Assembly: GCF_001956045.1 (NCBI RefSeq) | Contig: NZ_MRTH01000020.1 | Location: 87,149-151,148 of the forward strand | Source of the DNA: Paenibacillus sp. FSL H7-0331 | GTDB lineage: Bacteria > Bacillota > Bacilli > Paenibacillales > NBRC-103111 | DNA length: 64,000 nt | Direction: 5' to 3' | Notes under the pieces: model-generated | Told to the model about the DNA's origin: nothing | What the model saw: the letters and a program-made list of their open reading frames with translations, nothing else | Database searches by the model: none | In this document: one piece after another, positions 9,892 to 30,189 of the stretch | Numbering within the stretch: the stretch's first letter is position 1 | Layout: each line of letters starts with the position of its first letter | Position numbers and translations under genes: made by a program

Positions 9892-11532
9892 ATGAATAAA
9901 TGGACAACAATAACAATCGCAACGTTGTTGCTGGCAGCAGGCTGCAGTGATGGCAAAGAGCAAGGGGTCACGAAGAAGGATCTGCCAGCAGTAGCCGAGG
10001 GACCAAGCACAGAGGCAGGCACTTTTCCATTGGTCAAGGATAAAATAACGCTTAAAGTACTTGCTGTAAAAAATCCGAGTGTGCAGGATTATAGTACCAA
10101 TGAGTTTACGAAATGGTATGAGGAGAAGACGAACGTCAAGATCGAATGGCAATTTGCCACTCCACAGGATCGTCAGGAAAAGCTGAATCTGGTGCTGGCC
10201 ACCAATGATTTGCCGGATATGATCATTGGCTTCGGCGTTTCTCCCGCCCAACAAATGGTTTATGGGCAGCAAGGTTTGTTCATCGCACTGAACAATTTGA
10301 TCGATAAGTACGGTGTGGAAACGAAAAAAACTCTGGAAAAATACCCGGAAATCAAGCAAGCGACGACTGCTCCCAATGGCAATATATATTCACTCAGCAG
10401 TATCGACCGTAACCCACATACGATGCTTCAACAAAAAATGTGGATTAATACCGAGTGGTTAAAGAAGCTGAATCTGGACATGCCAACAACGACAGATGAG
10501 TTCGAAAAGGTGCTAAAAGCATTTAAGGAAAAAGATCCGAACGGTAATGGAAAAGCGGACGAAATTCCAATGATTGGGGGGATCCAGGAGAAGCTGACTG
10601 GATTGGACAGCTTTTTAATGAACTCGTTTATTTTGAATGATTTGAATGCAGACCAGCTAATTTTCGATGATAAAGGCAGCATAGAAGTTAATTTCAATAA
10701 GCCGGGCTTTAAGAAAGGTTTGCAATATTTAAATAAGTTATACGCCCAAGGATTGATAGCCCCGGAATCTTTTACGCAAAATAACGATCAAATGAAATCG
10801 CTCGTGGAAAATGGTGATGCGAGGGTCGGTGTCATATCTTCCTTCATCCCACAGGTATTCTCTAATATTACCGGCAAGCGGTGGCTGGATTATAAAACCG
10901 TTCCCCCGCTTAAGGGCCCGGACGGCTTGCAGCAGACCCCTTATCGTTATTATTCTGTCAATGGGGGTAATCTGTTAATTACAAATGCGTCAAAAAATCC
11001 CGAGGTTGCGTTTCGTTGGGCAGATGCGCTGTATAACTATGATATCAGTATGAGTGGAAATATCGGAACGGAGGGAATTGGCTGGCGGAAGCCAACAACG
11101 GATGAGCTCGGTCTGAATGGTAAACCGGCCAATTGGGTGCGGCTGCTGCCTTCCGGTACGCTGCAGAATAACAACTGGGCGCAAACGACATCTTACCATT
11201 TCTCGCGGGAAATGTTTGAAGGGCTTGCTGCTGGGCCGAATGAGGTGCCCCGTGTTTTGTACGAGGAGACACAAAAGAACTACGAGCCTTACAAAACGAA
11301 GCAGGAGCAGAGTGTACCTCCGGTGTTCTTCGATGACGCACAATCCTCAGAGCTCAGTGATTTGCAAAAAACGATCAAGGATTACGTGAAGGAAATGACT
11401 ACCCGCTTCATCATTGGAGATGCATCCATTGATAAGGAGTGGGATAAGTATATACAGACGTTGGATGGCATGAATTTGAAACGCTATCTTCAAATTTATA
11501 ACGAGGGCTACAAAGCGCAGTATAAAAAGTAA
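9892..11532 (+). CDS. Extracellular solute-binding lipoprotein (LplA-like)
   Basis: A 546-residue lipoprotein: the signal peptide ends in LAAGC with Cys18 as lipid anchor. The mature part is a large two-lobe binding protein of the LplA/family-1 cluster with the ...DPNGNGKADEIP acidic loop found in this group. It captures the substrate outside the membrane and delivers it to the two preceding permeases. AAGGAGGG precedes the ATG. The operon ends with the terminator right after this gene. Confidence 0.92.
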   Translation: MNKWTTITIATLLLAAGCSDGKEQGVTKKDLPAVAEGPSTEAGTFPLVKDKITLKVLAVKNPSVQDYSTNEFTKWYEEKTNVKIEWQFATPQDRQEKLNLVLATNDLPDMIIGFGVSPAQQMVYGQQGLFIALNNLIDKYGVETKKTLEKYPEIKQATTAPNGNIYSLSSIDRNPHTMLQQKMWINTEWLKKLNLDMPTTTDEFEKVLKAFKEKDPNGNGKADEIPMIGGIQEKLTGLDSFLMNSFILNDLNADQLIFDDKGSIEVNFNKPGFKKGLQYLNKLYAQGLIAPESFTQNNDQMKSLVENGDARVGVISSFIPQVFSNITGKRWLDYKTVPPLKGPDGLQQTPYRYYSVNGGNLLITNASKNPEVAFRWADALYNYDISMSGNIGTEGIGWRKPTTDELGLNGKPANWVRLLPSGTLQNNNWAQTTSYHFSREMFEGLAAGPNEVPRVLYEETQKNYEPYKTKQEQSVPPVFFDDAQSSELSDLQKTIKDYVKEMTTRFIIGDASIDKEWDKYIQTLDGMNLKRYLQIYNEGYKAQYKK

Positions 11533-11566
11533 TGCATGAAGCTCGTAAAATCCGAAGAAAATCGCA

Positions 11567-11608
11567 AACGGCTCTTTCGCAAATAATGCGAACAGAGTCG
11601 TTTTTTTT
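11567..11608 (+). terminator. Rho-independent terminator of the sulfatase operon
   Basis: A long stem (AACGGCTCTTTCGC, 11567-11580, with 11588-11602) around AAATAAT is followed by eight T. It has a small internal bulge. It isolates the sulfatase operon from the next cassette. Confidence 0.9.
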
Positions 11609-11762
11609 CACTGTTTCACGGAAGAGAGACTCCCCCAATCAACGAAATAAAATGAAGAAGTCTAGTTTTATATACTAAATTTAATATATAAATTTGAAAA
11701 TAACCTAAGTATAATAAACACAAATATATAAGCATGGTATAAAGAAAAGGAGGCATTATACA

Positions 11763-12665
11763 ATGATTACCACCAAAAAAGTACGAAGTCTTTCTGCGGT
11801 AACAGCTCCCTACGTATTTATCGGCCCATCCATGTTGTTTATCATTGTTTTATCTATATTCCCAATTCTTTACTCATTGTATTTAAGTTTTTTGAGCTAC
11901 AACTTATCCATGCCGGCTACTACAATCAAATTTAATGGTCTTAACAACTACGTGTATATGTTGACCAATAAAACGTTCTTAGGGTCAATTGCATGGACAT
12001 TAAGTTTTTCGATCATTGTTGTAGCTTTGAATGTCATCCTTGGAATGTCCTTGGCACTTCTATTGAACAGTTCGTTGATGGAACGCGCTGCGAACTTATT
12101 TAAAACCGCTTTCATTTTACCTATGATGTTGGCACACGTCGTCTCTGCAACGATATGGAAGCTGATGTTCTCACCGGTTTATGGTATTCTAAATAACATA
12201 TTAATGATGTTGGGTTATGACAAAGTAAATTGGACAGCGGATACAAATAATGCGAGATTCGCGATTATTCTTGTGGAGCTATGGGGCTCTACGCCATTTT
12301 GTATGCTTATCTTTTTAGCTGCTTTGAAAACGGTACCAAAAGAATTGTATGAATCTGCACTCATTGACGGAGCAAACCGGATCAGGACTTTCTATGGCAT
12401 AACACTCCCATTGATTAGAAACTTTCTGGCTTTGGTGGTTTCGATTCGGATAATGGATTCCCTAAGAATGTTCGATATTGTCTACACCTTAACTAATGGG
12501 GGGCCAGGAGATGATACCGAAACCATAGGAACAACGATTTACAAAACGGCATTCCGATATTCGGATATTGGGGTAGGTTCAGCAGGGGCTTTCTTATTTT
12601 TCATTTTGATCGTGATCGTGACGTTAGTCTTTCTCAAACTCATTCGCAGGGATTCAAAGGATTAG
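11763..12665 (+). CDS. CUT1 sugar ABC permease, MalF/UgpA type
   Basis: This 300-residue permease has six membrane segments and the EAA loop YESALIDGANRIRTFYGITLPL. The conserved TNGGPGDDTET segment is characteristic of the first permease of CUT1 sugar importers. AAGGAGG (11746-11752) lies before the ATG at 11763. The upstream region 11609-11762 is very AT-rich, with a TATAAT at 11710-11715 but no well-spaced -35. It pairs with the permease at 13842, from which it is separated by a regulator gene. Confidence 0.92.
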   Translation: MITTKKVRSLSAVTAPYVFIGPSMLFIIVLSIFPILYSLYLSFLSYNLSMPATTIKFNGLNNYVYMLTNKTFLGSIAWTLSFSIIVVALNVILGMSLALLLNSSLMERAANLFKTAFILPMMLAHVVSATIWKLMFSPVYGILNNILMMLGYDKVNWTADTNNARFAIILVELWGSTPFCMLIFLAALKTVPKELYESALIDGANRIRTFYGITLPLIRNFLALVVSIRIMDSLRMFDIVYTLTNGGPGDDTETIGTTIYKTAFRYSDIGVGSAGAFLFFILIVIVTLVFLKLIRRDSKD

Positions 12666-17247: not shown

Positions 17248-17354
17248 CGTAACAGGACCAACACCATTTTGGAGCAATTTGTCTGGGACCAAGCCTTGTT
17301 TTGGTTCCGATCAATCGACTAGAAATCGTTAAATTGAGATGGGAGAGAGATAAA

Positions 17355-18185
17355 ATGATGCGTTTGGCGATAATTGGTGATTTGCATTTTTTTGATAATA
17401 AATTTGTACAAGGAAATGAAGAACTGTTATTGGCTAAAGAAAGTTTCTATGAGAGATATTTGCAAAAGTTCTTCGAAATTGAAGCCGACTTGCACATCTC
17501 CCTTGGTGATTTGACCCACATGGGATGGGAGGAAGAATTTGAAAGCGTTTATCAACATATTCGTAACTCCGGTATATCTTTTCGCCATATATTAGGAAAC
17601 CACGATGCTTATGAATTACCTAAAACTAAAATTCAATCATTGATTGCTAATCCATTGAATGATGTATTTGAAACCGAAGAGGCCCTATTCGTGTTTGTTG
17701 ATTCGACTAGAGAAATGGACCCGAAAGATTATAGCGGTCATCTTAATGCGGACCAATTGGAATGGTTGGAGGCACAAATGCTCGTTTCTCCATCAAAGCC
17801 AATTTTAGTTTTTGCCCATCATCCCCTATATAACACGACAACCGGGTCAACGGATGAAAAAATGCATATTGATCCGACCATTGATATGCGTGCAATATTA
17901 CGAAAAAGACAAGGAAACTGTTTTTACTTCAACGGCCACAATCACATACACTCCATTGTAAGAGAAGAACAATGGAACTTTATTCAAACTGCAGCAGGCA
18001 TGTGTCATCCTTCCATACGCATCGTGGAAATCGATAAGTCTGAAGTTCGAACCCGCATAGTAGCCATCGAGGATAAAGAATTATTAGAAGCTGCGCAGAT
18101 TCTATATGATAAGTTACCTCAATATCATCGGCCATTACATGCATATGGGCAAAATGCGGATCGGGATCAAATCATATTGTTGTAA
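17355..18185 (+). CDS. Calcineurin-like metallophosphoesterase
   Basis: This 276-residue enzyme has the full two-metal set in order: GDLHF near the N-terminus, GDLTHMG, GNHD, FAHHPLY and NGHNH. It is cytosolic and most like the CpdA/class III phosphodiesterase branch. The ATG at 17355 is chosen because GGGAGAGAG lies 7 bases before it; a longer frame begins at 17301 without a site. It is the last gene of the GH43 cassette, before a strong terminator. The link between a phosphoesterase and glycan use is not explained by the sequence. Confidence 0.88.
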   Translation: MMRLAIIGDLHFFDNKFVQGNEELLLAKESFYERYLQKFFEIEADLHISLGDLTHMGWEEEFESVYQHIRNSGISFRHILGNHDAYELPKTKIQSLIANPLNDVFETEEALFVFVDSTREMDPKDYSGHLNADQLEWLEAQMLVSPSKPILVFAHHPLYNTTTGSTDEKMHIDPTIDMRAILRKRQGNCFYFNGHNHIHSIVREEQWNFIQTAAGMCHPSIRIVEIDKSEVRTRIVAIEDKELLEAAQILYDKLPQYHRPLHAYGQNADRDQIILL

Positions 18186-18264: not shown

Positions 18265-18731
18265 CCTGCGGAAAGTTAACAGTTCATTTTGTTAATGATT
18301 AATGATTAATGATTTATTTTGTTGTTTGTTGGTTTTTATCAATTGTTAATAAAGTGAAAATATGCAGTGAATGATCGGATTTTGATTTCAGTACACGAAA
18401 AACTTATTTTAGAAAGATAAAAACCAAGTAACATCAATTTACAACAAATATCGAAGATATATGATCATAAACGACAAATAAACGTTGACAAACGAAAGTT
18501 ATAGTGCGAAAATAATAACTATAATCTTAGCTTTAACTAATGATTGCAGCATGAGAAGGCATCCATAGTCTGGTTAGAGTCTTTATTGTATACGCATTCA
18601 ATAATGCGGTTAGCCGGTATCTTAGTTTCGTGTATATCAGGAGGTGTGCTTGATTATAAGAGTGTTGAAGCTTGGCGATTGAAAAAGGGAGCTGTTTTGA
18701 ATTGTTGTAAAGAAAAGGAGAGGGATTTCTC
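18265..18731 (+). promoter_or_regulatory. Long regulatory region and leader of the first DeoR-linked operon
   Basis: No gene is visible in this stretch. The first part has ATGATTAATGATTAATGATT (18295-18314), direct repeats of ATGATTA, in AT-rich DNA. The promoter lies at 18485-18513. About 210 bases of untranslated leader would follow, ending in AAGGAGAGGG before the TTG start at 18732. The leader could hold control elements, but I could not identify a known riboswitch. Confidence 0.5.
18485..18513 (+). promoter_or_regulatory. Promoter shared in sequence with the second operon
   Basis: TTGACA (18485-18490), 17 bases, then GAAAAT (18508-18513) preceded by TGC. The block AAACGTTGACAAA ... TGCGAAAATAA is the same as at 24977-25011 upstream of the dehydrogenase operon. 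AACGTTGACA overlapping the -35 box also fits the 3' half of a cre site (the TG at its 5' end is missing). Confidence 0.6.
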
Positions 18732-19784
18732 TTGGCATCCATAGAGTTCGTGAAGGTAACCAAATCGTTTGATAAGCAGGATGTTATAAAAGATTTGGAT
18801 TTAAAGATTGAAGACGGGAAGTTTACGGTTCTGGTTGGTCCGTCAGGCTGCGGGAAGACGACACTTCTTCGTATGATTGCCGGTATTGATCCTCAGACCT
18901 CTGGTTCGGTGCTTATAAACGGAAAGGATGTCACACGAATTGCACCCGGTCAAAGAGGAGTAGCTATGGTATTCCAAAACTATGCCATTTACCCCACGAT
19001 GTCTGTAAGGGAGAATATTGAGTTTGGACTAAAAAACAATAAGGTGGGTAAAGAGGAAAGAACCCAACTCGTGGAGAGTATCAGTACTACAGTTGGTTTG
19101 AATAACTACCTTGACCGTAAACCGTCCACCTTATCCGGCGGACAACGCCAGCGCGTCGCATTGGCACGTGCCATGGTTAAGAAGCCTTCCGTGTTTCTGA
19201 TGGATGAGCCGTTGTCCAATCTGGATGCCAAGCTCAGAGGGCAGATGCGTATCGAATTGATCGAGCTGCACAAGAAATTAGGTACCACCTTCGTATATGT
19301 AACGCACGATCAAGTGGAAGCGATGTCTATGGCTGACACGATTGTTTTAATGAACCAGGGACTGATACAACAAGAGGCTCCACCGGATATTATTTATCGT
19401 CAGCCCAACAATTTGTTCGCAGCACAGTTTATCGGCGTCCCGCCAATGAATGTGGGTAACTTGAATGTGGACGGAGTGAAGTTTGGTTTCCGACCGGAGA
19501 GTACGGAAGTATCCAATGAGCCTCTCGACCATCATTATTCTCTCCGTGGAGTAATTGCTACAAGGGAGATGCTTGGATCCGAAACGCTGTATCAAATAAA
19601 AACCAAAGAGCATTCCTTCATGGTCAAGTGCGTCGAAGACCGCTTTAGCGTCGATCAAGAGGTATACTTGGGAGTTCAGGCATCCAAGTTGTTTTTTTTC
19701 GGAGCCGATGAAAACCGTATTCTTGAGAAGCATAGCCGTTTTCCTGACTACTTGGAGGCGCTGAAAGGGCAGCGGCATGGATAA
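18732..19784 (+). CDS. Sugar ABC transporter ATPase (UgpC/MsmX type)
   Basis: A 350-residue ATPase with Walker A GPSGCGKTT, signature LSGGQRQR, Walker B FLMDEPLSNLDAKLR and switch His in THDQVEA. An OB-like regulatory domain after about 240 is typical of CUT1 ATPases. The TTG start follows AAGGAGAGGG. It overlaps the next permease gene by 8 bases. It is the only ATPase of the sugar-import type in the window, so it may also energise the three other CUT1 importers, as MsmX does in Bacillus. Confidence 0.94.
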   Translation: MASIEFVKVTKSFDKQDVIKDLDLKIEDGKFTVLVGPSGCGKTTLLRMIAGIDPQTSGSVLINGKDVTRIAPGQRGVAMVFQNYAIYPTMSVRENIEFGLKNNKVGKEERTQLVESISTTVGLNNYLDRKPSTLSGGQRQRVALARAMVKKPSVFLMDEPLSNLDAKLRGQMRIELIELHKKLGTTFVYVTHDQVEAMSMADTIVLMNQGLIQQEAPPDIIYRQPNNLFAAQFIGVPPMNVGNLNVDGVKFGFRPESTEVSNEPLDHHYSLRGVIATREMLGSETLYQIKTKEHSFMVKCVEDRFSVDQEVYLGVQASKLFFFGADENRILEKHSRFPDYLEALKGQRHG

Positions 19785-20655
19785 TAGAACATTATGGGAA
19801 AGGCTTCGTCCGTATCTATTGGTTACTCCTGCTATGATAGGTATTTGTCTTTTTATTATGTATCCTGTTGTTTATTTAGTTTATTTAAGCTTTTATAAAT
19901 ACAACCTGTTGAACAAAGCGAAAAGTAAATACATCGGATTTGATAACTTTAAACAAATTTTTACTCGGGAAGATTTTTACCAGGCGCTGATGAATACGGT
20001 ATTTTACACAGTCGGTGTAGTCGTATTCACCTTGCTGTTATCCCTGCTCATTGCTTTATGGTTGAATAAAAAGAAACGGTTCAATGCTATTGTTCAAGCA
20101 GGTATATTCACACCGCACATCATTTCTATTGTATCCATTGCGCTGGTGTGGCTGTGGATTATGGAACCAAGTCAAGGTTTACTGAATTTTGTGTTCAAAG
20201 CGATAGGGCTGCCACCTTCCCAATGGCTGCAGAGCTCGAGTACAGCACTTATTTCGGTCATTATCGTATCTGTGTGGCATGGCATAGGCTACTACACGTT
20301 GATCATTATTGCTGCGCTGCAAAGCATACCTCCAACTATCTATGAAGCGGCAGCGCTAGATAATGCCAGCCGGTTCAAAGTGTTCTACAAGATAACGATA
20401 CCACTTATATCACCACAGCTGTTTTTCATCCTGCTCATTATGACAATCGGCTCCTTTAAAGTGTTTGATACCGTTCAAGTTATGACGGGCGGAGGTCCAA
20501 ATAACGCAACAAGTACTCTCGTTTACTACATTTATGAATATCGAACAACGAATATTGGTTACTCAGCTGCTACAGGTGTAGTTCTTATGGCTATCATCGG
20601 GATTTTAACCGTTATCTACTTCCGGGTGCTTTCCAAAAAGGTGCATTACCAATAA
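19777..20655 (+). CDS. CUT1 ABC permease, UgpA type
   Basis: A 292-residue permease with six membrane segments, EAA loop YEAAALDNASRFKVFYKITIPL and the TGGGPNNATSTL segment. Start codon ATG overlaps the end of the ATPase gene, which indicates translational coupling. Partner of the next permease. Confidence 0.93.
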   Translation: MDNRTLWERLRPYLLVTPAMIGICLFIMYPVVYLVYLSFYKYNLLNKAKSKYIGFDNFKQIFTREDFYQALMNTVFYTVGVVVFTLLLSLLIALWLNKKKRFNAIVQAGIFTPHIISIVSIALVWLWIMEPSQGLLNFVFKAIGLPPSQWLQSSSTALISVIIVSVWHGIGYYTLIIIAALQSIPPTIYEAAALDNASRFKVFYKITIPLISPQLFFILLIMTIGSFKVFDTVQVMTGGGPNNATSTLVYYIYEYRTTNIGYSAATGVVLMAIIGILTVIYFRVLSKKVHYQ

Positions 20656-20691
20656 GCCGCTTACATAACCAAGAAAAAGGGGAATTCGTAC

Positions 20692-21522
20692 TTGAAGACA
20701 TATGAATTCAAATATTGGACGATATTGGAAATTATATTGAAAGCGGCCGTGTTAATGGTGTTTATTGTCCCATTTCTATGGATGATTTCAACGTCGCTGC
20801 AAACGTTTGAGGAGACCATGACTTTCCCGCCTACGATTATTCCGGTGATGCCTCAATGGGTCAATTTTGTAGACGCCATGAAAGCAGGGCCATTTCTGAC
20901 GTATGGAATCAATTCTGTCATCATTACGGTCTCGATTATTGTGATTCAATTAGCCGTAATGATCCCGGCAGCCTACTCATTTGCCAAATATAAATTTGCA
21001 GGGAAAAATATACTGTTCGGCATGGTTTTACTGGCTTTCATGGTTCCTGGACAGGTTACTTTTATTCCTATCTATTTAATGATGGCGGATTGGGGAATCG
21101 GCAAGACGCTGCTGCCACAAATTATTCCTTTTATGTCCAGCGCCTTCGGAATCTTCCTCATGCGTCAATATTTTATGCAAATACCGCAAGAAATTATCGA
21201 AGCAGCGAAGCTGGATAATGCAAGTGAGTTTAAGATTGTATGGAACATTATGATTCCGATGTCAAAGTCGGCGTTGGCAACCATCGCGCTGTTCAGTTTT
21301 GTCAGTCATTGGAACGATTATTTCTGGCCGTTGATTATGACAGATTCGGCTTCAATCCGCCCTCTGACTATAGGTATTGCCATGCTCCGAATGACCGAAG
21401 GGATCAGTAACTGGAATATTATCATGGCTGGAAACGTTGTTTTGGTTGTTCCTATTCTTATTGTGTATCTGTTCTGCTACAAGCAAATTGTTAAAGCTTT
21501 TGTTTACTCTGGCATTAAGTAG
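20692..21522 (+). CDS. CUT1 ABC permease, UgpE type
   Basis: A 276-residue permease with EAA loop IEAAKLDNASEFKIVWNIMIPM, six membrane segments and the C-terminal FVYSGIK. The TTG start follows AAGGGGAA. The paired LDNAS in both EAA loops of this importer is consistent with the two permeases having evolved together. Confidence 0.93.
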   Translation: MKTYEFKYWTILEIILKAAVLMVFIVPFLWMISTSLQTFEETMTFPPTIIPVMPQWVNFVDAMKAGPFLTYGINSVIITVSIIVIQLAVMIPAAYSFAKYKFAGKNILFGMVLLAFMVPGQVTFIPIYLMMADWGIGKTLLPQIIPFMSSAFGIFLMRQYFMQIPQEIIEAAKLDNASEFKIVWNIMIPMSKSALATIALFSFVSHWNDYFWPLIMTDSASIRPLTIGIAMLRMTEGISNWNIIMAGNVVLVVPILIVYLFCYKQIVKAFVYSGIK

Positions 21523-21577
21523 CAGGTTGGTTTCTATTAGATCAAATATGAGACAAAGAAACTGGAGGAATTTCAAA

Positions 21578-22921
21578 ATGAGGAATAAGTTAAGTGTAAT
21601 GATGACAGTACCGGTAGTACTGAGTCTGTTAGCAGGCTGCTCCGGAGGTACACCGCAAGTGAATGAAACCAAGCCGGCTTCCACGCCAGCAGGTACTCAA
21701 AAACCAGCTGAAACCGCTAAGGTACCAGAGCCTGCCAAGACTGGAAAGACGACCGTTCAGTTCTGGCACTCCCTAGGCGGGAAAAATTTGGAGTATATGG
21801 ATGGCTTAATCAAACGCTTCAATGAGAGTCATAAAGATATTGAGGTTGTGGGTACATACCAAGGTAGTTATGATGAAACCGTAACCAAGCTTCAGCAAGC
21901 CATTGCTGCTAAGAAAGGACCGGATATTACCATGCTGGAGCGTGCATATGTAGAGTTTTTTGCAGATGCAGATGTGCTCGAAGACCTTAACCCGTATCTC
22001 AAGAGCTCCAATTTGAGCGAAGATATTTTTGTGCCTGGATTTATGGGACATTCGACCTTTAATAAAAAGCTGGTTTCACTTCCGTTAAATCGTTCGACTC
22101 CGATCATGCATATTAATAAAACATTGCTGGATGAGAAAGGGCTCGCCATTCCGACTACTTGGGATGAATTGCAGAAAGTATCCGAAGCATTGGTCGTCAA
22201 AGAAAATGGGCAGTACAAACGGTATGGTATGACGATGCCGTATGATACTTGGTATCCTATAGCCATGATTTCTCAAGCCGGAGGAAAGTTCTTCAGTGAC
22301 GATAAGAAAACGGTTGGTTTTGTAGATAACGGGGTTGGACTGAGAATGTTCAAATTCTTGAAGGATCTTCAAAGCACAGGTGCGTTATACTATCCTCCTG
22401 CCAAAGATTCCGGTGAAATTACAAATCAAATGTTCATTGACGGTAAAGTGGGTGTTTTCTATCAATCAACAGGCAACATCGGCAGCTTCAGTGGTATCGT
22501 TAAGTTTAACTATGTAACCGCATTCTTGCCTAAGGACAAAGTATTCGCTAACCCGACCGGCGGAGCAAACGTAGCTATGCTGTCATCTGCTGCCGATAAA
22601 AAAGCGGCTTGGGAGTTTATGCGCTGGATGGAAACGGATCCGCAGGGAGGCTTGCAGTTCATTTTGCAATCCGGGTACCTACCGTTTACAAAAGCTATGG
22701 TTGAGTCTAAAGAAATTAAAGAATTGTGGGCAAAGGAGCCCAATCGTAAAACTGCTTACGACCAGCTTCAATATGCGGTTGATACGAACAAGAGTGTTGC
22801 TTGGCCTGAGGTAAATAAGGAATTCTTATCAGCAAGTGAAGCGATAATGTATGACAGTAAAGATATACAAACAACATTGTCGTCCTTTAAGAAAGAAACC
22901 GATAGAATTCTGTCGAAATAA
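21578..22921 (+). CDS. ABC transporter substrate-binding lipoprotein (UgpB-like)
   Basis: A 448-residue lipoprotein with lipobox LLAGC (Cys21). A Pro/Thr/Ala/Lys linker is followed by a family-1 binding fold that starts TTVQFWHSLGGKNLEYMDGL, close in style to UgpB, the binding protein for glycerol 3-phosphate and glycerophosphodiesters. The ATG at 21578 is chosen because of GGAGGAA before it and the signal peptide that follows; the frame is open further upstream. It completes the importer begun at 18732. Confidence 0.9.
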   Translation: MRNKLSVMMTVPVVLSLLAGCSGGTPQVNETKPASTPAGTQKPAETAKVPEPAKTGKTTVQFWHSLGGKNLEYMDGLIKRFNESHKDIEVVGTYQGSYDETVTKLQQAIAAKKGPDITMLERAYVEFFADADVLEDLNPYLKSSNLSEDIFVPGFMGHSTFNKKLVSLPLNRSTPIMHINKTLLDEKGLAIPTTWDELQKVSEALVVKENGQYKRYGMTMPYDTWYPIAMISQAGGKFFSDDKKTVGFVDNGVGLRMFKFLKDLQSTGALYYPPAKDSGEITNQMFIDGKVGVFYQSTGNIGSFSGIVKFNYVTAFLPKDKVFANPTGGANVAMLSSAADKKAAWEFMRWMETDPQGGLQFILQSGYLPFTKAMVESKEIKELWAKEPNRKTAYDQLQYAVDTNKSVAWPEVNKEFLSASEAIMYDSKDIQTTLSSFKKETDRILSK

Positions 22922-22940
22922 ACGTGGGGAGCGGACTTTC

Positions 22941-23777
22941 ATGATGGTTACAGATCGTAAAGATGCAAATCAAAAGGTTCATTGGCAAGCCCATCAAAGC
23001 ACGAATGCCGAGATGCCTGAGAACACATTGGCGGCCATGCGATATGCTTGGGAGCTTGGCGGCATTCCGGAACTCGATATTAGGCAAACTGCTGATGGTG
23101 TTATTATCGGTATGCATGATACAACGCCGAAGCGAACAACAAACGCACCTGAATCGGATCAGGATCGACTGATTTCGGAATGCGCGTTTGCTGAGGTTCA
23201 AGAATGGGATGCAGGGATCAAATTCAGTGAACAGTATAGGGGAGAGAAGGTCCCCGCACTTGCTCAAATATTGTCCGTGTTAGCTCAGTACCCTGAGCGT
23301 GAGCTCTACCTGGATTTCAAAGAGGTCGACTTGAAAAAAATGGCTTTGCTCATTAAGGAATATGGAGTTGGGCGACAAATTATTTTTTGCCACTCCAATC
23401 ATGAGAACTGCAAGACGGTTAAACGGTTAGTGCCAGAGGTGCGTACTATGCAATGGATTCCCGATAATGAGGTTGACTTCAGATTTCAAGAGACGCTTGA
23501 AACCGGATTCGACTCCCTTGACATCGTTCAAATTCATTTGGTCGATGCCAAGGCAAATGAAGGATGGAGATACAGGCTGCAGCGTGAGTTTTTGCAGGAG
23601 GCGCTTAAGCATTTGAACGAAGCCGGATTAGAACTGGAAGTATTGCCATTTCACTTCGACCAGGATTCTATGTTCGAGCTTATGGATATGGGGATCCGAC
23701 GGTTTGCCGTCGACGAACCGAAAGTGTTTGTACAAACGATTCACCGTTATTTCAATGATAGGCAGAATGGTGGCTAG
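22941..23777 (+). CDS. Glycerophosphodiester phosphodiesterase family protein
   Basis: A 278-residue cytosolic enzyme of the GDPD TIM-barrel family. It keeps the catalytic pair His18 (WQAH) and His59 (GMHD), the PENT motif and the metal ligands Glu44 and Asp46 (ELDIRQTADG). The Arg that normally follows the first His (HR motif) is Gln19 here, and an insertion separates it from PENT. It probably hydrolyses the imported phosphodiester, but substrate choice may differ from standard enzymes. GGGGAG precedes the ATG; the same frame is open farther upstream. It is the last gene of the importer operon. Confidence 0.85.
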   Translation: MMVTDRKDANQKVHWQAHQSTNAEMPENTLAAMRYAWELGGIPELDIRQTADGVIIGMHDTTPKRTTNAPESDQDRLISECAFAEVQEWDAGIKFSEQYRGEKVPALAQILSVLAQYPERELYLDFKEVDLKKMALLIKEYGVGRQIIFCHSNHENCKTVKRLVPEVRTMQWIPDNEVDFRFQETLETGFDSLDIVQIHLVDAKANEGWRYRLQREFLQEALKHLNEAGLELEVLPFHFDQDSMFELMDMGIRRFAVDEPKVFVQTIHRYFNDRQNGG

Positions 23778-23807
23778 TCATTCCTATAAATGGATTGGGT
23801 AGATACA

Positions 23808-23828
23808 AGGGGCAAGAAAGCTGCCCCT
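23808..23828 (+). terminator. Terminator of the importer operon
   Basis: AGGGGCA (23808-23814) pairs with TGCCCCT (23822-23828), followed by GTTTGTTATTT. It stops the operon before the convergent DeoR gene. Confidence 0.7.
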
Positions 23829-23954
23829 GTTTGTTATTTCGGCAAAGCAAGCAGATCGTCCATATATGGTGGACAAAATGCTCCAGAAAATGGAAAATTT
23901 ATTTAGTAGTATTGGAAAGCAGGAGGGGCCTGAATATAGGGGGGATTGCTTAGA

Positions 23955-24713
23955 TTAATCGGCAATGACGATCTCTATACCATCGAGGGTATTCAGGAAG
24001 TCCCTGTCGGCGCTTTGATCCGTAATTAGGGTACTTATTTGATTAACCTCTGCAAAGGTTGCGATGGATCTGCGGTTCAGCTTGGAATGATCCAGCAAGG
24101 CAACCACTTTATTTACATTGTTCACCATCAGTTTTTTCAGCTCGGCTTCATAGATGCTGAAATCGGCTAGACCGGAAGTGGTGGTAAAGCCATGCGCAGA
24201 GGTGAAGAACACGTCGGCATGAATTTGCGAGAGCAGTCCTTTGCCAAGCAAGCCTTCCAATGAGCTCGAGCCTGGTCTAAGCACGCCTCCGATAACGATG
24301 ACGTTAATATGAGGATTGCGAGTTAATTCTTGCGCTGTGGCCAACCCGTTAGTCACAACGGTTAAATAATCGTAGTTAATCAAAAGCTTGGCAAGTTCAA
24401 GGGAGGTTGAACTGGCGTCGAGAATGATACATTGGCCATTTTGAACAAAGGGAAGAGCAGCTTTACCTATCATCTTCTTCTCCGCTTGATTAGCTAAGCT
24501 GCGTGAGTGAAAGGTATTCTCGGAGGTTGTTGGTTTTGGTAAAACAGCACCACCATGTGTTCTTTCCAGTAAACCGTCCTCTTCCAGAATTTTGAGATCA
24601 TTGCGAAGCGTTCCTTCGGAAACGTTTAATTCTATGGATATATCTTTAACTAACAATTGTTTATTTTCGTTTAATATTTGCATAATCTGATTACGTCGTT
24701 CGGGTGCCAACAT
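23955..24713 (-). CDS. DeoR-family transcription regulator
   Basis: A 252-residue repressor with an N-terminal helix-turn-helix (ERRNQIMQILNENKQLLVKDISIELNVSEGTLRNDLKILEE, then RTHGGA). The DeoR sensor domain follows, with the phosphosugar-binding ILDASST and VVTNGL segments and a C-terminal GxxADF region. Such proteins respond to phosphorylated sugars or polyols. The start at 24713 is fixed by AGGAGATG just before it and by the promoter lying further upstream. It sits between two operons that share a promoter block and is read away from the dehydrogenase operon, so it most likely represses both. Confidence 0.92.
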   Translation of the reverse strand: MLAPERRNQIMQILNENKQLLVKDISIELNVSEGTLRNDLKILEEDGLLERTHGGAVLPKPTTSENTFHSRSLANQAEKKMIGKAALPFVQNGQCIILDASSTSLELAKLLINYDYLTVVTNGLATAQELTRNPHINVIVIGGVLRPGSSSLEGLLGKGLLSQIHADVFFTSAHGFTTTSGLADFSIYEAELKKLMVNNVNKVVALLDHSKLNRRSIATFAEVNQISTLITDQSADRDFLNTLDGIEIVIAD

Positions 24714-24744
24714 GTTCGCATCTCCTAGAGTACATTTTTTTAGT

Positions 24745-24773
24745 ATTATAACAAAATAAAAATAATCATTCAA
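24745..24773 (-). promoter_or_regulatory. Promoter of the DeoR gene
   Basis: On the minus strand TTGAAT, 17 bases, TATAAT. It lies about 30 bases before the ATG at 24713. Confidence 0.65.
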
Positions 24774-24980
24774 TAATTGATGTCAAATACGTATGGAAAT
24801 ATAATTAAAATTAATAAAGCAACCACAAACACATAAATATGAAGCATAAGCGTTAGTATCGTCTTACAGCAATCAAATTCATTTGCGCTATCTTCACTAT
24901 TATATCACAAATTTAAATTGTTGGATTTCGTTTAAATGAAAACAAATGATAACAAACAACAGTATAAATCAAATTAAACG

Positions 24981-25009
24981 TTGACAAAGTTTGGCTTAGA
25001 TGCGAAAAT
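24981..25009 (+). promoter_or_regulatory. Promoter of the dehydrogenase/kinase operon
   Basis: TTGACA (24981-24986), 17 bases, GAAAAT (25004-25009) with TGC before it: the same arrangement and flanks as at 18485. The stretch AACAAATGATAACAAACAACAG (within 24940-24961) just upstream has AACAAA repeats that could be DeoR sites. Region 24774-24940 holds nothing else that I recognise. Confidence 0.6.
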
Positions 25010-25068
25010 AAATATGTAAAATAGGAATTGTTATATTTATCTAATATATATACTAGGGAGGTTATTTA

Positions 25069-26148
25069 GTGAATATCAGTATGATTCCTGGAAATATGAA
25101 AGCCATTGTAGCCTATGCCCCGGGCGATTATCGGCTGGAAACAGTTGATGTACCGACAGCAGGTTTTGGCGAGATGGTCATTAAAGTTGAAGCTTGTGGT
25201 ATTTGTGCAGGTGATATAAAAGCGTTCCAAGGAGCGCCAAGCTTCTGGGGGGATGACAAACAAGCTTCTTACATTAAAGCCCCCATGATTCCCGGACATG
25301 AATTTATCGGCTTTGTGGTCCAGATCGGAGAAGGTGTTGAAGGGTATTCGATTGGTGATCGGGTCATATCCGAACAGATTGTGCCTTGCTGGAATTGCCG
25401 GTTCTGCAAGCGTGGACAGTATTGGATGTGCGAAAAGCACGACCTGTACGGTTTTCAGAATAATGTAAACGGTGCCATGGCGGAATATATGAAGTTCACG
25501 AAGGAAGCCATTAATTTCAAAGTTCCGCTTGATCTCCCGATTGAGAAAGCTATTCTGATTGAGCCTTATGCTTGCTCTCTCCATGCCGTCCAGCGTGCAC
25601 AAATCGAGCTTGGTGATGTAGTCGTCATTTCGGGAGCAGGAACATTAGGTTTAGGAATGGTAGGCGCCGCGAAAAGATCCGGAGCCGGAAAGCTAATCGT
25701 GCTGGATTTGTTCGAAGAGAGATTGCAATTAGCCAGAGAATTTGGTGCGGACCTGGTATTGAACCCGAAAGAGGTTGATGTGGTTGCTGAGATTAAAAAG
25801 CTGACGGAAGGTTACGGTTGCGATATTTATATCGAGGCTACCGGACACCCCAAATCCGTTGAGCAGGGACTTAACATGATCCGTAAACTGGGCAGGTTCG
25901 TTGAATTCAGTGTGTTCAAGGATCCCGTCACGGTAGATTGGAGCATTATAAGCGATAGAAAAGAATTGGATGTGCTTGGCTCCCATCTTGGACCTTATTG
26001 TTACCCGCTTGTTATAGAGGGCATTGCTAATGGAGATTTCCCGACAGAGGGGGTAGTCACTCATATGCTTCCATTGGAGCAATATTTGGAAGGCTTTGAT
26101 TTGGTGAAAAAAGGTATTAACTCATTGAAGGTCGTTCTTATTCCCTAA
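25069..26148 (+). CDS. Zinc-dependent medium-chain dehydrogenase (polyol type)
   Basis: A 359-residue MDR oxidoreductase. Catalytic zinc ligands lie in CGICAGD and GHEFIG. The structural-zinc cluster is complete (CWNCRFCKRGQYWMC). The Rossmann motif is GAGTLGLG, followed by an acidic VLDLFEE that favours NAD over NADP. Family members oxidise polyols (sorbitol, threitol, ribitol) or threonine. With an isomerase and a ketose kinase downstream, oxidation of a polyol to a ketose is the most reasonable role. GGGAGG precedes the GTG start. It is the first gene of its operon, and the next gene is separated by a structured repeat. Confidence 0.9.
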   Translation: MNISMIPGNMKAIVAYAPGDYRLETVDVPTAGFGEMVIKVEACGICAGDIKAFQGAPSFWGDDKQASYIKAPMIPGHEFIGFVVQIGEGVEGYSIGDRVISEQIVPCWNCRFCKRGQYWMCEKHDLYGFQNNVNGAMAEYMKFTKEAINFKVPLDLPIEKAILIEPYACSLHAVQRAQIELGDVVVISGAGTLGLGMVGAAKRSGAGKLIVLDLFEERLQLAREFGADLVLNPKEVDVVAEIKKLTEGYGCDIYIEATGHPKSVEQGLNMIRKLGRFVEFSVFKDPVTVDWSIISDRKELDVLGSHLGPYCYPLVIEGIANGDFPTEGVVTHMLPLEQYLEGFDLVKKGINSLKVVLIP

Positions 26149-26165
26149 CTTGTCTTAAAGTACGA

Positions 26166-26333
26166 GTTCAAAAAGTTCGCACTTCAGCACCGAGAAGGTT
26201 GCAAGAACCTGAAGAAGGAGGAGCGGAGCTTAGGCAAAACCTAAGTGAGCACCGGACTTCGAAGGTGAATGCAAGTTTCGATGTCGAATACGCTTCCTGT
26301 GTTACCTCGTGATCAAGTGGGGACTTTTTGAAC
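26166..26333 (+). repeat. Structured intergenic repeat with inverted ends
   Basis: A 168-base element lies between the first two genes of the operon. Its ends are inverted copies: GTTCAAAAAGTTC (26166-26178) and GGACTTTTTGAAC (26321-26333), 12 of 13 matching. Inside are perfect hairpins AGGTT-gcaag-AACCT (26196-26210) and CTTAGG-caaaa-CCTAAG (26229-26245). It encodes nothing. From memory it resembles a repeat seen many times between genes in Paenibacillus genomes, but this was not checked. It could be a MITE-like unit or an RNA-level insulator. Confidence 0.7.
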
Positions 26334-26375
26334 AACCTCTCATACACGTATTTCTATAATAAAGGAGCCTTACAC

Positions 26376-26873
26376 ATGAGAATAGCCATTGGAGCCGATG
26401 AGGCGGGTTTCACCTTGAAGGAAATTATTAAAAGCTATCTCGGAGAACGAGGTGTTGAGCATGTTGATTTTGGTCCGGCAGACAGTACCCAGTCCATCGA
26501 TTATCCTGATGTTGGCTTTGCTGTTGCAGAAGAAGTTGTTCGAGGCCATTATGACCGTGCCATCCTGATCTGTGGTACTGGTATAGGAATGACGATTACG
26601 GCGGATAAGGTTCCGGGAATCCGTGCAGCACTTTGCCATGACACTTATTCGGCAGAACGTGCTATGAAGAGTAACAATGCCCAGGTGCTGACGATGGGAG
26701 CGAGAGTGATCGGTTCGGAATTGGCTAAACATATTGTCCGTGCATGGCTGGAATCGGAATTTGACGGGGGCAACTCGGAGCGCAAGGTTCAGAAGATTAT
26801 GGAAGGCGAGCAAAGGCTCGCAGGTACGGGTGTATATGCAAAAGAAATCAGTTCATGTTCTACACATGAATAA
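26376..26873 (+). CDS. RpiB/LacAB-family sugar-phosphate isomerase
   Basis: A 165-residue isomerase of the RpiB fold with Cys66 in the ICGTGIGM active-site loop and the NNAQVLTMGARVIG segment. The N-terminal motif is GADEAG (Asp8-Glu9), where ribose-5-phosphate isomerase B has Asp-His. This suggests a different substrate, such as a tetrulose or other ketose phosphate. AAAGGAG (26361-26367) fixes the ATG at 26376. It sits between the dehydrogenase and the DhaK/DhaL genes, the order known from erythritol and threitol pathways. Confidence 0.88.
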   Translation: MRIAIGADEAGFTLKEIIKSYLGERGVEHVDFGPADSTQSIDYPDVGFAVAEEVVRGHYDRAILICGTGIGMTITADKVPGIRAALCHDTYSAERAMKSNNAQVLTMGARVIGSELAKHIVRAWLESEFDGGNSERKVQKIMEGEQRLAGTGVYAKEISSCSTHE

Positions 26874-26906
26874 AGCAAAGGGATAGAAGGAAGGAGCGGT
26901 TAGGTC

Positions 26907-27908
26907 TTGAAAAAACTGATTAATGTGCCCAATGCGGTAGTCGATGAAATGATTGAAGGGTATGTGGCGGCGTATCCGAAATATGTGAAGGTGCTGCCTG
27001 AGAATAAACGGTCCGTAGTAAGTGTGGAAACGGCAAGAGCAGGTAAGGTGGGTGTAGTGATAGGCGGCGGCAGTGGTCATGAGCCAGCCTTCATGGGTTT
27101 GATAGGACGTGGATTTGCTGACGGCGTACCGGTAGGTAACGTGTTCGCTTCACCACCGCCGGATCCGATCCTCGAAGTGACCCGAGCGGTCAACGGGGGT
27201 GCTGGTGTTGTATATATATACGGCAATTATGCAGGAGATTGCATGAACTTCGATATGGCAGCCGAGCTTGCGGAGATGGAGGATATACAGGTTCAGACGG
27301 TGCTGGTAACCGATGATGCAGCTTCAGCTCCGCTATCGCAAGCAGATCGCCGTCGTGGGATTGCCGGGGGCTTTCTTGTTTTTAAAACGGCGGGAGCGGC
27401 AGCCGATCAAGGCTATACCCTGGATGAAGTAGTCCTCGCTGCCCGTAAAGCCAATGCTAATCTCCGGACAATGGGCGTGGCCCTGAGCCCGTGCGCCGTG
27501 CCTCAGACGGGTAAGCCAAGCTTTGTGCTGGGCGAGGATGAGATGGAGATTGGCTTGGGCATTCACGGAGAGCCGGGCATTGAGCGGGGAACACTCAAGA
27601 CAGCGGACGAAGTGACGGATGCACTGCTGGAGCGAATCCTCGAGGATATGCCGATCACTGCAGGGGAACGGGTAGTGGTTTTGGTCAACGGGCTCGGATC
27701 GACACCGCATATGGAGTTGTTCGTTGTGTACCGTCGAGTGGCGAAGCGCCTGAAAGACTTGGGTGTGAGCATTCATCGTTCCTTTGTGGGGGAATATGTG
27801 ACCTCGCTGGAAATGGGAGGCTGCTCTGTGTCGGTTATGAAGCTGGACGATGAGTTGATCCGGCTGATCGATCATCCGACAGATACACCGATGTATGTGC
27901 AGCAGTAA
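26907..27908 (+). CDS. Dihydroxyacetone-kinase-like protein, DhaK domain
   Basis: A 333-residue DhaK subunit, which binds a short-chain ketose through a covalent hemiaminal bond to His. The expected His220 lies in GLGIHGEPG, and the substrate loops GGGSGHEPAF and VTDDAAS are present. With the DhaL gene next to it, it forms a two-part kinase. No DhaM-type phosphotransferase subunit is seen, so ATP is the probable donor. The start is TTG with AAGGAGCGG upstream. Related kinases act on dihydroxyacetone, erythrulose or similar ketoses. Confidence 0.92.
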   Translation: MKKLINVPNAVVDEMIEGYVAAYPKYVKVLPENKRSVVSVETARAGKVGVVIGGGSGHEPAFMGLIGRGFADGVPVGNVFASPPPDPILEVTRAVNGGAGVVYIYGNYAGDCMNFDMAAELAEMEDIQVQTVLVTDDAASAPLSQADRRRGIAGGFLVFKTAGAAADQGYTLDEVVLAARKANANLRTMGVALSPCAVPQTGKPSFVLGEDEMEIGLGIHGEPGIERGTLKTADEVTDALLERILEDMPITAGERVVVLVNGLGSTPHMELFVVYRRVAKRLKDLGVSIHRSFVGEYVTSLEMGGCSVSVMKLDDELIRLIDHPTDTPMYVQQ

Positions 27909-27966
27909 GAGCTCATCTAATGCTACCGATGTCTTGCTAATGCAAAGCATTGAGGAGGGAAAGTTA

Positions 27967-28605
27967 ATGAAAGTAAACATGGAGCAATGGAAAAGTCTCT
28001 TCGGTCATATTGCCTTACGAATCGAGGAGGAGAAAGAAGGGTTGTCCGAGCTGGACAGGGCAGTGGGCGATGGTGATCATGGGGTCACGATGTCGCTAGG
28101 CTGGGAAGCTATCGTTGAAGCAACAGCTGCATTCGAAGGGGGAGATTGCGGAGCCTTGTGCAAAAAAATCGCAATGACCTTCCTGAATGCGGTCGGATCG
28201 TCGGTAGGACCGCTGTATGCCACGGCCTTTCTGCGTGGAGCAGCGGTGCTTCAAGGAAAAGAGGAGCTGGAGGAGGAGGATATCGTTCAGTTTTGGTTGG
28301 CTGCGGTAAAGGGGATTCAAGAACGTGGCAAAGCCCAGATCGGCGATAAAACCATGATGGATGCCTGGCTTCCTGCGATGGACGCTCTCCAGCAAGCCAG
28401 AGCAGAGGGTCAAGGACTATTGGAGAGCTTGGAAGCGGCTGTGAAGGCTGCTGAGGAAGGCAAACGCTCAACCGCTTTATTAATATCCCGAATAGGACGA
28501 TCCAGCCGGTTGGGGGAGCGTTCTTCCGGTCATATCGACCCGGGAGCGGCTTCTGCTCATATCATTCTCTCGGCATTTACCGAGGCACTGACCATTCGTA
28601 AATGA
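27967..28605 (+). CDS. Dihydroxyacetone-kinase-like protein, DhaL domain
   Basis: A 212-residue DhaL subunit, the nucleotide-binding part of the kinase. The N-terminal metal/nucleotide motif GDGDHG and the C-terminal RSSRLGERSSGHIDPGAAS are characteristic. GAGGAGGGA lies before the ATG at 27967; the frame is open further upstream. It works with the DhaK protein encoded directly before it. Confidence 0.93.
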   Translation: MKVNMEQWKSLFGHIALRIEEEKEGLSELDRAVGDGDHGVTMSLGWEAIVEATAAFEGGDCGALCKKIAMTFLNAVGSSVGPLYATAFLRGAAVLQGKEELEEEDIVQFWLAAVKGIQERGKAQIGDKTMMDAWLPAMDALQQARAEGQGLLESLEAAVKAAEEGKRSTALLISRIGRSSRLGERSSGHIDPGAASAHIILSAFTEALTIRK

Positions 28606-28663
28606 AAGCTGGGATAGCTATGAAAAATATAGGTTCAGGCTTAAAAGAAAGGGTAGTTAATCT

Positions 28664-29485
28664 ATGAGTGGAATTCGCATGATAGTCAGTGATTTGGATG
28701 GAACGCTGCTGTCTGAGGACAACAGAGTAACTGACACGGTTAAAGATGCCATCGATCGATTTCGATTAGCCGGTGGGCTGTTTACAATCGCTACTGGCCG
28801 TTTCGGTCCAAGTACCGAAAGTATAATTAAACAGCTGAATATTGATATTCCTTTTATTTTATGCAATGGAGGCGTGCTGGCGAATCAGGATCGTGTATTA
28901 GAGATGGAGATGATTACCCTGGAAGAGACTTCATCTTTTTTATTGGAATGTGACCGGCTCGGGGTGACCGTCATGCTGTTTCGAGAGGATGGACTTCATG
29001 CGATCCGGCGTTCGCCGCAATTGGAGTTATTTGAACAAAAAGAGGGAATTCGCAGTTCTTTCATACATGCGCTTGCTGACGATTGGCTTACCACTCCTGT
29101 CCAGAAGGTCGTTATGGTCGGAGATGTGAAGCAGATAAAGGAAATCTGGCAAAAGCAACAAAGCAGCTTTCGCAAGCAATACGCTATTACACAGTCTGAG
29201 GATGACTTATTTGAAATTCTACCGCCCTTTCAAAGCAAGGGTACGACTCTGAAAAAACTGATGACCTTGATGAATTTAGAGTCGCGGGAAGTCATGAGCA
29301 TCGGAAACCAAATGAATGATCTGGATATGCTAGAAAACTCCGGAATTGGCGTAGCCGTAGCCAACAGTCACCCCGAGCTTAAAAAGAAGGCTTCCTATGT
29401 GTGCAGCAAAAGCTATGGTGAAGGCGTAGTGGAAGCAATGGAACGATTTGTATTCAATTCAACGATTGTACGGAGGGATGCATGA
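28664..29485 (+). CDS. HAD-superfamily Cof-type phosphatase
   Basis: A 273-residue hydrolase with the nucleophile motif SDLDGTLL (Asp10, Asp12), a C2-type cap and the C-terminal GNQMNDLDML. Members remove phosphate from sugar phosphates and related compounds. It overlaps the next gene by 4 bases (ATGA), so both are co-translated. In this operon it may remove a dead-end phosphate or prepare a polyol phosphate for oxidation. Confidence 0.9.
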   Translation: MSGIRMIVSDLDGTLLSEDNRVTDTVKDAIDRFRLAGGLFTIATGRFGPSTESIIKQLNIDIPFILCNGGVLANQDRVLEMEMITLEETSSFLLECDRLGVTVMLFREDGLHAIRRSPQLELFEQKEGIRSSFIHALADDWLTTPVQKVVMVGDVKQIKEIWQKQQSSFRKQYAITQSEDDLFEILPPFQSKGTTLKKLMTLMNLESREVMSIGNQMNDLDMLENSGIGVAVANSHPELKKKASYVCSKSYGEGVVEAMERFVFNSTIVRRDA

Positions 29486-30189
29486 TGAAAGTAAAAGGTA
29501 TCGCGCACAGAGGCTGCCCTAGCCGTTATCCTGAAAATACGCTGATTTCATTTAAGGAGACAGTGAAGCTCTCTTATTCATATCTGGAACTGGATGTTCA
29601 GCTTAGTAAGGATGGCGTACCCGTGATTATCCACGATACATCAGTGGACCGCATGACGAACGGACAAGGGCGGGTAAAGGATTTGACCTTGGCTGAGCTC
29701 AAGGAACTGCGGATAGGGGGAACCGAGCAAATTCCTACTCTGGAAGAGGCATTGACTTTGTTGAGGGATCAACTAATCATTGACATTGAACTCAAGCAGA
29801 TGGGGAATCTGTATCCTGGATTAGAAGAAAAGGCATTGACTATGGTACAAGAGATGGGGATGCTGGATCAAGTGTTTTTTTCCTCCTTCGATCATTATTC
29901 TATGGTAAAGCTAAGACAGTTGGAGCCTAAAGCTGAAATTGGGTTGATCAATCATAGTGCCAGCCCGGCCTTATTCCCATTCCTAAAAGAGCTGAATGCC
30001 CGATATTTGTCGATTAGTTTGGACTATGTCACCCCGGAACTGATTCAACGTTGTGAACAGGAAAATATAATCTTTATCCCTTATACGGTGGACCGGGAGG
30101 AGGATATGCAGGATATGCTCCGCTATCCGTCCGTACTCATTTGCACGAATGAGCTGGAAAGATGGGCTTCTATATCGTCAATTGGATAA
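29482..30189 (+). CDS. Glycerophosphodiester phosphodiesterase
   Basis: A 235-residue GDPD with the canonical motifs: His9-Arg10 (AHRG), PENT, metal ligands Glu36 and Asp38 (ELDVQLSKDG), and His51 (IIHD). It is cytosolic like UgpQ and splits glycerophosphodiesters into glycerol 3-phosphate and an alcohol. It is the second GDPD of the regulon and, unlike the first, keeps the HR motif. It ends the operon; no strong terminator is evident after it. Confidence 0.92.
   Translation: MMKVKGIAHRGCPSRYPENTLISFKETVKLSYSYLELDVQLSKDGVPVIIHDTSVDRMTNGQGRVKDLTLAELKELRIGGTEQIPTLEEALTLLRDQLIIDIELKQMGNLYPGLEEKALTMVQEMGMLDQVFFSSFDHYSMVKLRQLEPKAEIGLINHSASPALFPFLKELNARYLSISLDYVTPELIQRCEQENIIFIPYTVDREEDMQDMLRYPSVLICTNELERWASISSIG

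Follow-up and report, generated by a model that had tools for sequence, protein, structure and literature searches.

Known systems and the Paenibacillus locus

In the UgpB substrate-binding protein of Phaeobacter the phosphate of the ligand is held by Tyr64, Ser143, Ser266 and Tyr342, and the glycerol is contacted by Gly303, Arg393 and Glu88 together with a clamp of Trp188 and Trp191 (PMC12718374). The phosphate quartet is reported to be strict in UgpB and in glycerophosphocholine- and dinucleotide-binding proteins, and is absent from glucose-binding ones (same source). Among routes for tetritols, EltD and LerK convert erythritol to D-erythrulose-4-phosphate, which DerI converts to erythrose-4-phosphate (PMC10733421). 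In Brucella, erythrose-4-phosphate from erythritol enters central metabolism via Tal and Fba (PMC11508834). Teichoic acid backbones include ribitol, glycerol and mannitol phosphate polymers (PMC6801904), and B. subtilis builds its lipoteichoic acid from sn-glycerol-1-phosphate units (PMC7086022). The present analysis concerns two neighbouring operons of Paenibacillus sp. FSL H7-0331, found in a stretch of 64,000 nucleotides (the window; contig NZ_MRTH01000020.1, positions 87,149 to 151,148), in which parts resembling these systems stand side by side.

On balance, and with moderate confidence, the locus is read as a regulon under a DeoR-family regulator that serves the use of erythritol, or of a tetritol close to it, in the form of a phosphate ester or diester. 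Judged from residues and gene neighbourhoods, the ligand would be captured through its phosphate by a UgpB-like lipoprotein and carried into the cell by the ABC importer. One or both of two glycerophosphodiester phosphodiesterase-type enzymes (GDPD1 and GDPD2) would split the diester, and a HAD phosphatase would strip the phosphate remaining on the polyol. By family and by the names of relatives, the dehydrogenase would then oxidise the freed erythritol to D-erythrulose, a step published for EltD. DhaK-DhaL would make D-erythrulose-4-phosphate, as published for LerK, and the RpiB/DerI-type enzyme would turn this into erythrose-4-phosphate, as published for DerI. One regulator would switch both operons through a promoter motif that they are observed to share.

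Operon 2 and the proposed tetritol route

Operon 2 (25069-30189, plus strand) encodes a zinc MDR dehydrogenase (25069..26148), an RpiB/DerI-type sugar-phosphate isomerase (26376..26873), DhaK-type (26907..27908) and DhaL-type (27967..28605) kinase subunits, a Cof-type HAD-IIB phosphatase (28664..29485) and GDPD2 (29482..30189); all six were assigned by family search. The dehydrogenase shares up to 84% of its residues with proteins that carry the name erythritol/L-threitol dehydrogenase (84% to P0099, 83% to P0102 and 81% to P0116, among the best 120 of 6485 matches, most of which bear other or general names). The isomerase passed the RpiB subfamily cut-off (195 bits versus 135) and DhaL that of its model (179 versus 138.3); DhaK scored 403.7 bits with TIGR02363, marginally under the cut-off of 406.25. 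A family search of operon 2 placed none of its six proteins in the EryA-type kinase or EryB dehydrogenase families. No LerI-type gene was seen in the operon, so that erythritol (or D-threitol) suits the set better than L-threitol. At gene level the core looks like the published tetritol route ending in erythrose-4-phosphate, and the polyol handled here is most likely erythritol, not ribitol. The first-pass annotation of this DNA had spoken of a glycerophospho-polyol, for example a teichoic-acid fragment; that can now be sharpened to erythritol as the likely polyol. TarJ-like (ribitol-type) modules are found elsewhere in this importer family.

When 104 genomes of the family were searched with the isomerase (E up to 1e-55), it was present in eight, and a 392-genome draw of the order gave those eight and one more. 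Conservation was counted over the eight family loci (L103, L104, L105, L111, L112, L113, L114 and L115). Dehydrogenase and isomerase occur together in all eight; seven retain the HAD phosphatase and GDPD2, and six have DhaK-DhaL locally. The same eight genomes carry orthologues (73-82%) of the DeoR-family regulator, which was assigned by family search and whose gene (23955..24713, minus strand) lies in the window between the two operons. For L104 and L112 the genomes (G001 and G073) have a DhaK (78-79%) on a different contig, and DhaL and a GDPD-type gene lie close to it. Near such DhaK-DhaL pairs and GDPD-type genes, at L203 3780-6895 and L204 5731-8773, there are frames whose motifs look like those of an exonuclease/endonuclease/phosphatase-type hydrolase, of an FGGY-type kinase and of a phosphatase of the phosphoglycerate-mutase type. 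Two kinds of extra gene lie inside operon 2 of relatives: one for a GlpX-type bisphosphatase, in L103, L113 and L114, and, in L105, one of the fructose-6-phosphate aldolase/transaldolase family. GlpX is described as a sedoheptulose-1,7-bisphosphatase (PMC10733421), and partners of these two kinds are as expected if the product of the route is erythrose-4-phosphate.

The importer, its binding site and the phosphodiesterases

Operon 1 (18732-23777, plus strand) is arranged in the order ATPase, two permeases, substrate-binding protein, GDPD. It encodes a UgpC-like CUT1 ABC ATPase (18732..19784), UgpA-like (19777..20655) and UgpE-like (20692..21522) permeases, the UgpB-like lipoprotein (21578..22921) and GDPD1 (22941..23777), all assigned by family search. 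The top NCBIfam match of each importer subunit is the corresponding Ugp model, and none passed the cut-off (bits/cut-off: UgpA 168/335, UgpB 101/411, UgpC 385/432, UgpE 128/297). All genes listed in the first-pass annotation were found at the coordinates given there. Probable starts were amended, by eye and by comparison with relatives, to 21578 (binding protein, with a lipobox at Cys21), 22941 (GDPD1), 24713 (DeoR), 26376 (isomerase) and 27967 (DhaL).

The types and spacing of the Phaeobacter residues served to place them in E. coli UgpB (L195), which gives Tyr65, Ser144, Ser270 and Tyr346 for the quartet. In an alignment of 47 family rows including the window (45 distinct loci, L008/L170 and L012/L186 being duplicates), the quartet is kept in every row. 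The glycerol-contacting Arg397 (E. coli number) is found in none and the Gly in all 47, while the first clamp residue, Trp192, is always replaced (by Tyr in 31 rows, Phe in 13 and His in 3) and Trp195 is invariant. Opposite Glu89 of UgpB there is an Arg in one alignment, and an invariant Glu one column off in others. None of the quartet is present in a second binding protein of the window (14760), and the full quartet was seen in none of 12 other proteins of this kind in a rough alignment. One of these 12, adjoining operon 2 in another genome (L114), has three of the four, with Thr for one Ser. Since the quartet is kept and the Arg and first Trp are lost, we read this as a site that still grips phosphate while the polyol it takes is not glycerol.

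Both GDPDs reach the Pfam gathering score for PF03009 (GDPD1 73.5 bits, GDPD2 154.9 bits) and have the catalytic His/Glu/Asp/His. GDPD2 has the canonical HRG motif. GDPD1 has HQS in its place, with Gln for Arg in the window copy and in 12 of 12 other cluster rows (10 distinct loci); HRG is intact in more distant GDPD1 relatives. By eye no signal peptide was seen in either protein and, with an importer alongside, both would act inside the cell.

The binding protein was searched for in the 104 genomes and found in at least 53 places in 36 of them; as 16 candidates were scored per genome, some loci may be missed. Forty-nine places were covered (left out were G008:C188, the second place of G098:C23 and two G018 fragments), and they include near relatives, so that they are not independent. 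A same-strand GDPD lies within 6 kb of the importer in 40 of the 49, in 36 of these within 200 bp, and one also directly adjoins the binding protein at the G008:C188 and G098:C23 places. As background, 20 genomes totalling about 162 Mb gave 209 GDPD matches, or about 1.7% expected per stretch of equal size; the association of GDPD and importer exceeds chance.

These data bear on the possibility that free erythritol or threitol is degraded, that the GDPDs and the HAD phosphatase scavenge phosphate or glycerol-3-phosphate, and that free tetritol, or a glycoside of it, is what the importer brings in. The core enzymes would require the free polyol only, and one related operon in eight, L115, has neither the HAD phosphatase nor a GDPD. 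The predicted model of the binding protein (mean predicted local distance difference test, pLDDT, 84.1) matches phosphodiester- and sugar-binding proteins about equally, so that the fold decides neither way. Such a pathway is nevertheless unlikely in view of the phosphate quartet in all 47 rows, the GDPD beside the importer in 40 of 49 loci, the HAD phosphatase and GDPD2 kept in seven of eight related operons, and the GDPD-type gene that adjoins the separate DhaK-DhaL pair in two genomes. The first-pass annotation had proposed that an imported glycerophospho-polyol is split by GDPD, oxidised, phosphorylated and isomerised. The retained UgpB phosphate residues, the conservation of GDPD and HAD phosphatase and the linkage to polyol modules partly support this scheme, in which the ligand, and its possible origin as a teichoic acid fragment, are predictions.

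Polyol modules beside the importer

Four module types were chosen, the neighbour clusters recurring most often at these very loci, with 'none' standing for no match at the set identity thresholds. Among the 50 loci (49 and the window) there are 23 with a TarJ-like gene, 8 with a glycerol-1-phosphate dehydrogenase-type gene, 7 of a hexitol type, 3 with the erythritol set and 9 with none. Thus one module type is present in 41 of 50 loci and two in none; a GDPD is within 8 kb in 42. The module names rest on single representatives. For the TarJ-like one the best solved match is 6xh9, a ribulose-5-phosphate reductase (173 bits versus 55 for the next), and its curated models are weak L-idonate dehydrogenase matches only. 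The glycerol-1-phosphate dehydrogenase representative matches 9h4x (292 bits) and does not pass its curated model (206 bits, cut-off 413). The hexitol-type set consists of a galactitol-phosphate-type dehydrogenase and a pentulose-phosphate epimerase, joined in five of seven loci by a mannitol-1-phosphate dehydrogenase; the MtlD and Rpe models are over their cut-offs and galactitol-1-phosphate dehydrogenase is under (251 versus 550).

The polyols of the modules match backbones known from teichoic acids. Erythritol teichoic acid is a further polymer of this kind. A broader proposal is tentative, and we give it slightly less than even credence: Paenibacillaceae would possess interchangeable polyol-phosphodiester loci, in which a core of Ugp-like importer and GDPD is joined to one of several polyol modules, and these soil bacteria would thereby feed on teichoic-acid-like polymers made by their neighbours, with each locus serving a single polyol. 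The TarJ-like module would then stand for ribitol phosphate, and lipoteichoic acid or glycerol phosphate of the archaeal type would be the business of the glycerol-1-phosphate dehydrogenase, next to the hexitol-phosphate and erythritol sets. The first-pass annotation had asked for a gene-neighbourhood survey; the outcome links the importer family to GDPDs and polyol modules, and places it next to operon 2 in only some genomes.

The glycerol-containing loci raise the question whether glycerophosphodiesters or pieces of glycerol-phosphate teichoic acid are imported here as well, the dehydrogenase and DhaK-DhaL handling glycerol and dihydroxyacetone. Near relatives of the window's binding protein do sit with a glycerol-1-phosphate dehydrogenase-type gene, whose ligand the window importer may have kept, and sn-glycerol-1-phosphate does occur in lipoteichoic acid, as mentioned above for B. 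subtilis. This explanation is quite improbable: at the window and L002 loci such a gene is missing up to 8 kb from the binding protein, the isomerase, the dehydrogenase names and the GlpX and transaldolase-family partners fit a C4 polyol, and the shared motif places the importer in the regulon of operon 2.

The common promoter motif and probable co-regulation

The promoter/operator-like element AAACGTTGACAAA-N12-TGCGAAAATAA lies 5' of operon 1 (18480..18515, plus strand) and, by pattern scan, 5' of operon 2 (24976..25011, plus strand), and nowhere else in the window at up to three mismatches. This strict form was copied from both window promoters, and its presence there is by construction. A shortened motif at three mismatches gave four matches in the window, two of them the exact ones, versus 1.00 expected. 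A looser pattern, TTGACAAA-N11/12-TG[CT][GA]AAAAT, was scanned in 2.43 Mb of loci and the window, with a shuffle control that preserved base content only. It gave 17 matches: the two window promoters and 15 (in overlapping loci) at six operon-2 promoters, those of L103, L104, L105, L111, L112 and L113 among the eight relatives. The pattern had been fitted after inspection of five promoters, of which L103, L104, L105 and L111 fit and L114 does not; the promoters of L112, L113 and later L203 had not been inspected before fitting.

The motif recurs ahead of the separate DhaK-DhaL pair in two genomes. In a scan with a still looser pattern of loci added later, it was found about 0.8 kb before DhaK in L203, where it fits the looser pattern exactly, and about 1.0 kb before DhaK in L204, with one mismatch and permease-like pieces between. 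None of the 49 importer loci outside the window has the motif at an importer operon of its own; the exception is L105, whose importer comes after operon 2 in the same orientation. Operons 1 and 2 are probably switched together by one regulator. The first-pass annotation had staked its proposal on their co-regulation, which the shared motif supports, binding of the motif by the DeoR protein being presumed.

Three loci, those of the window, L105 and L111, have an importer of this family adjoining operon 2, and a tree of the binding proteins puts each of the three in a different subclade (local support of their own pairs 1.0, 0.995 and 0.959; deep supports are weak). More distant Ugp-type transporters (permeases 37-39%) adjoin parts of operon 2 in L114 and L204. 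That two unrelated operons are merely adjacent, as the 47 of 50 importer-family loci without operon 2 within 8 kb might suggest, is highly improbable given a 24-position spaced motif in both promoters that is otherwise found only at this regulon and a linkage recurring in three subclades.

Several observations weigh against the regulon for an erythritol phosphate ester or diester. The top NCBIfam models and solved structures for the dehydrogenase are L-threonine 3-dehydrogenase (220 bits versus a cut-off of 458), and the erythritol name of its relatives is a transferred annotation. The isomerase scores 182 bits with the DerI model NF051858, its second-best model, below the cut-off of 240. Among the relatives, L104 and L112 lack a local DhaK-DhaL, the looser pattern is missing at L114 and L115, and at L111 the binding protein and permeases have no adjoining GDPD or ATPase gene. 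GDPD1 relatives occupy 77 loci, and the binding protein adjoins GDPD1 in 11 of them (L002-L009 and L011-L013); in none of these 11 was operon 2 found within the up to 10 kb examined, some loci stopping earlier at a contig end (L002 2.4 kb past GDPD1). Over the same distance a close operon 2 was seen in none of the 77, DhaK and DhaL being unmatched, the isomerase reaching at most 50% (L014) and the dehydrogenase at most 34%. An orthologous isomerase (at least 77%) is present in only 3 of 16 genomes searched. Given the 11 loci and the 3 of 16 genomes, this family of importers is not reserved for erythritol. A natural erythritol phosphodiester, erythritol teichoic acid included, was not found among the papers listed in the literature searches.

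Additional features of the window and related loci

Between the dehydrogenase and isomerase genes, at 26163-26335, there are about 170 bases with matching inverted ends, resembling a small insertion element; a second copy was absent from the window and from the loci compared. Upstream of operon 1, 17301-18185 encodes a calcineurin-type metallophosphoesterase for which the highest-scoring NCBIfam model is that of the SpdA cyclic nucleotide phosphodiesterase (49 bits, far under the cut-off of 400). It could be a further phosphodiesterase of the system or a partner of the preceding gene.

In P. solanacearum (L001, 9899-10837) a GDPD1 with 89% identity has no importer within the 10 kb examined, and the start of its open frame resembles, by eye, the junction 5' of the window GDPD1; the importer may have been lost there. 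The eight loci with a glycerol-1-phosphate dehydrogenase-type gene (L003, L004, L005, L006, L155, L158, L162 and L170) combine it with importer and GDPD, and a catabolic route for sn-glycerol-1-phosphate in Paenibacillus is possible. Near the importer in 11 loci there is a PF21311 five-bladed propeller protein, the domain being named from phage receptor binding. The domain was checked on the L009 member (10833-11888), which has, by eye, a signal-peptide-like start.

Comparison with known systems

The combination of parts appears to be new, each half resembling known systems: no description of it was found by title or abstract among the papers listed in the literature searches, with most subscription journals outside coverage. 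The earlier statement that no described pathway joins these parts thus stands for the combination, but not for the operon-2 core, since the EltD/LerK/DerI route has been published (PMC10733421). If the proposed regulon exists, it would show how bacteria make use of sugar alcohols linked by phosphate, which are a chemically varied component of cell envelopes. The regulon would provide a set of binding proteins whose ligands are predictable from the neighbouring dehydrogenase, and would suggest how a Ugp-type site could switch from glycerol to other polyols with the phosphate grip retained.

Operon 1 is like E. coli UgpBAEC and UgpQ in joining a four-part CUT1 importer to an adjacent GDPD, and its binding protein has the four phosphate-holding residues of E. 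coli and Phaeobacter UgpB. It differs from Ugp in that all four subunits are under the Ugp model cut-offs and its family is tied to polyol modules, and from UgpB in the replaced glycerol-contacting Arg and the change of the first clamp Trp to Tyr, Phe or His. The two GDPDs, whose substrate here is a prediction, recall the teichoic acid-cleaving GlpQ of B. subtilis, a glycerophosphodiesterase acting on polyol phosphodiesters (PMC7086022); unlike GlpQ, they stand beside an importer without a visible signal peptide and would be intracellular. The EryABC, EryH and EryI pathway of Brucella likewise ends in erythrose-4-phosphate and needs Fba and Tal to reach central metabolism (PMC11508834). It phosphorylates first, with the EryA kinase followed by EryB, whereas the window route would oxidise the free polyol first, and operon 2 shows no kinase family besides DhaK-DhaL and no second dehydrogenase. 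At the level of enzymes there is a likeness to EltD/LerK/DerI of Mycobacterium smegmatis (Huang 2015, via PMC10733421), where a dehydrogenase, a DhaK-type kinase and an RpiB-type isomerase lead to erythrose-4-phosphate. Unlike that set, the window operon has no LerI-type gene in sight and encodes DhaK and DhaL separately, and it adds GDPD, HAD phosphatase, a Ugp-like importer and, probably, one common regulator.

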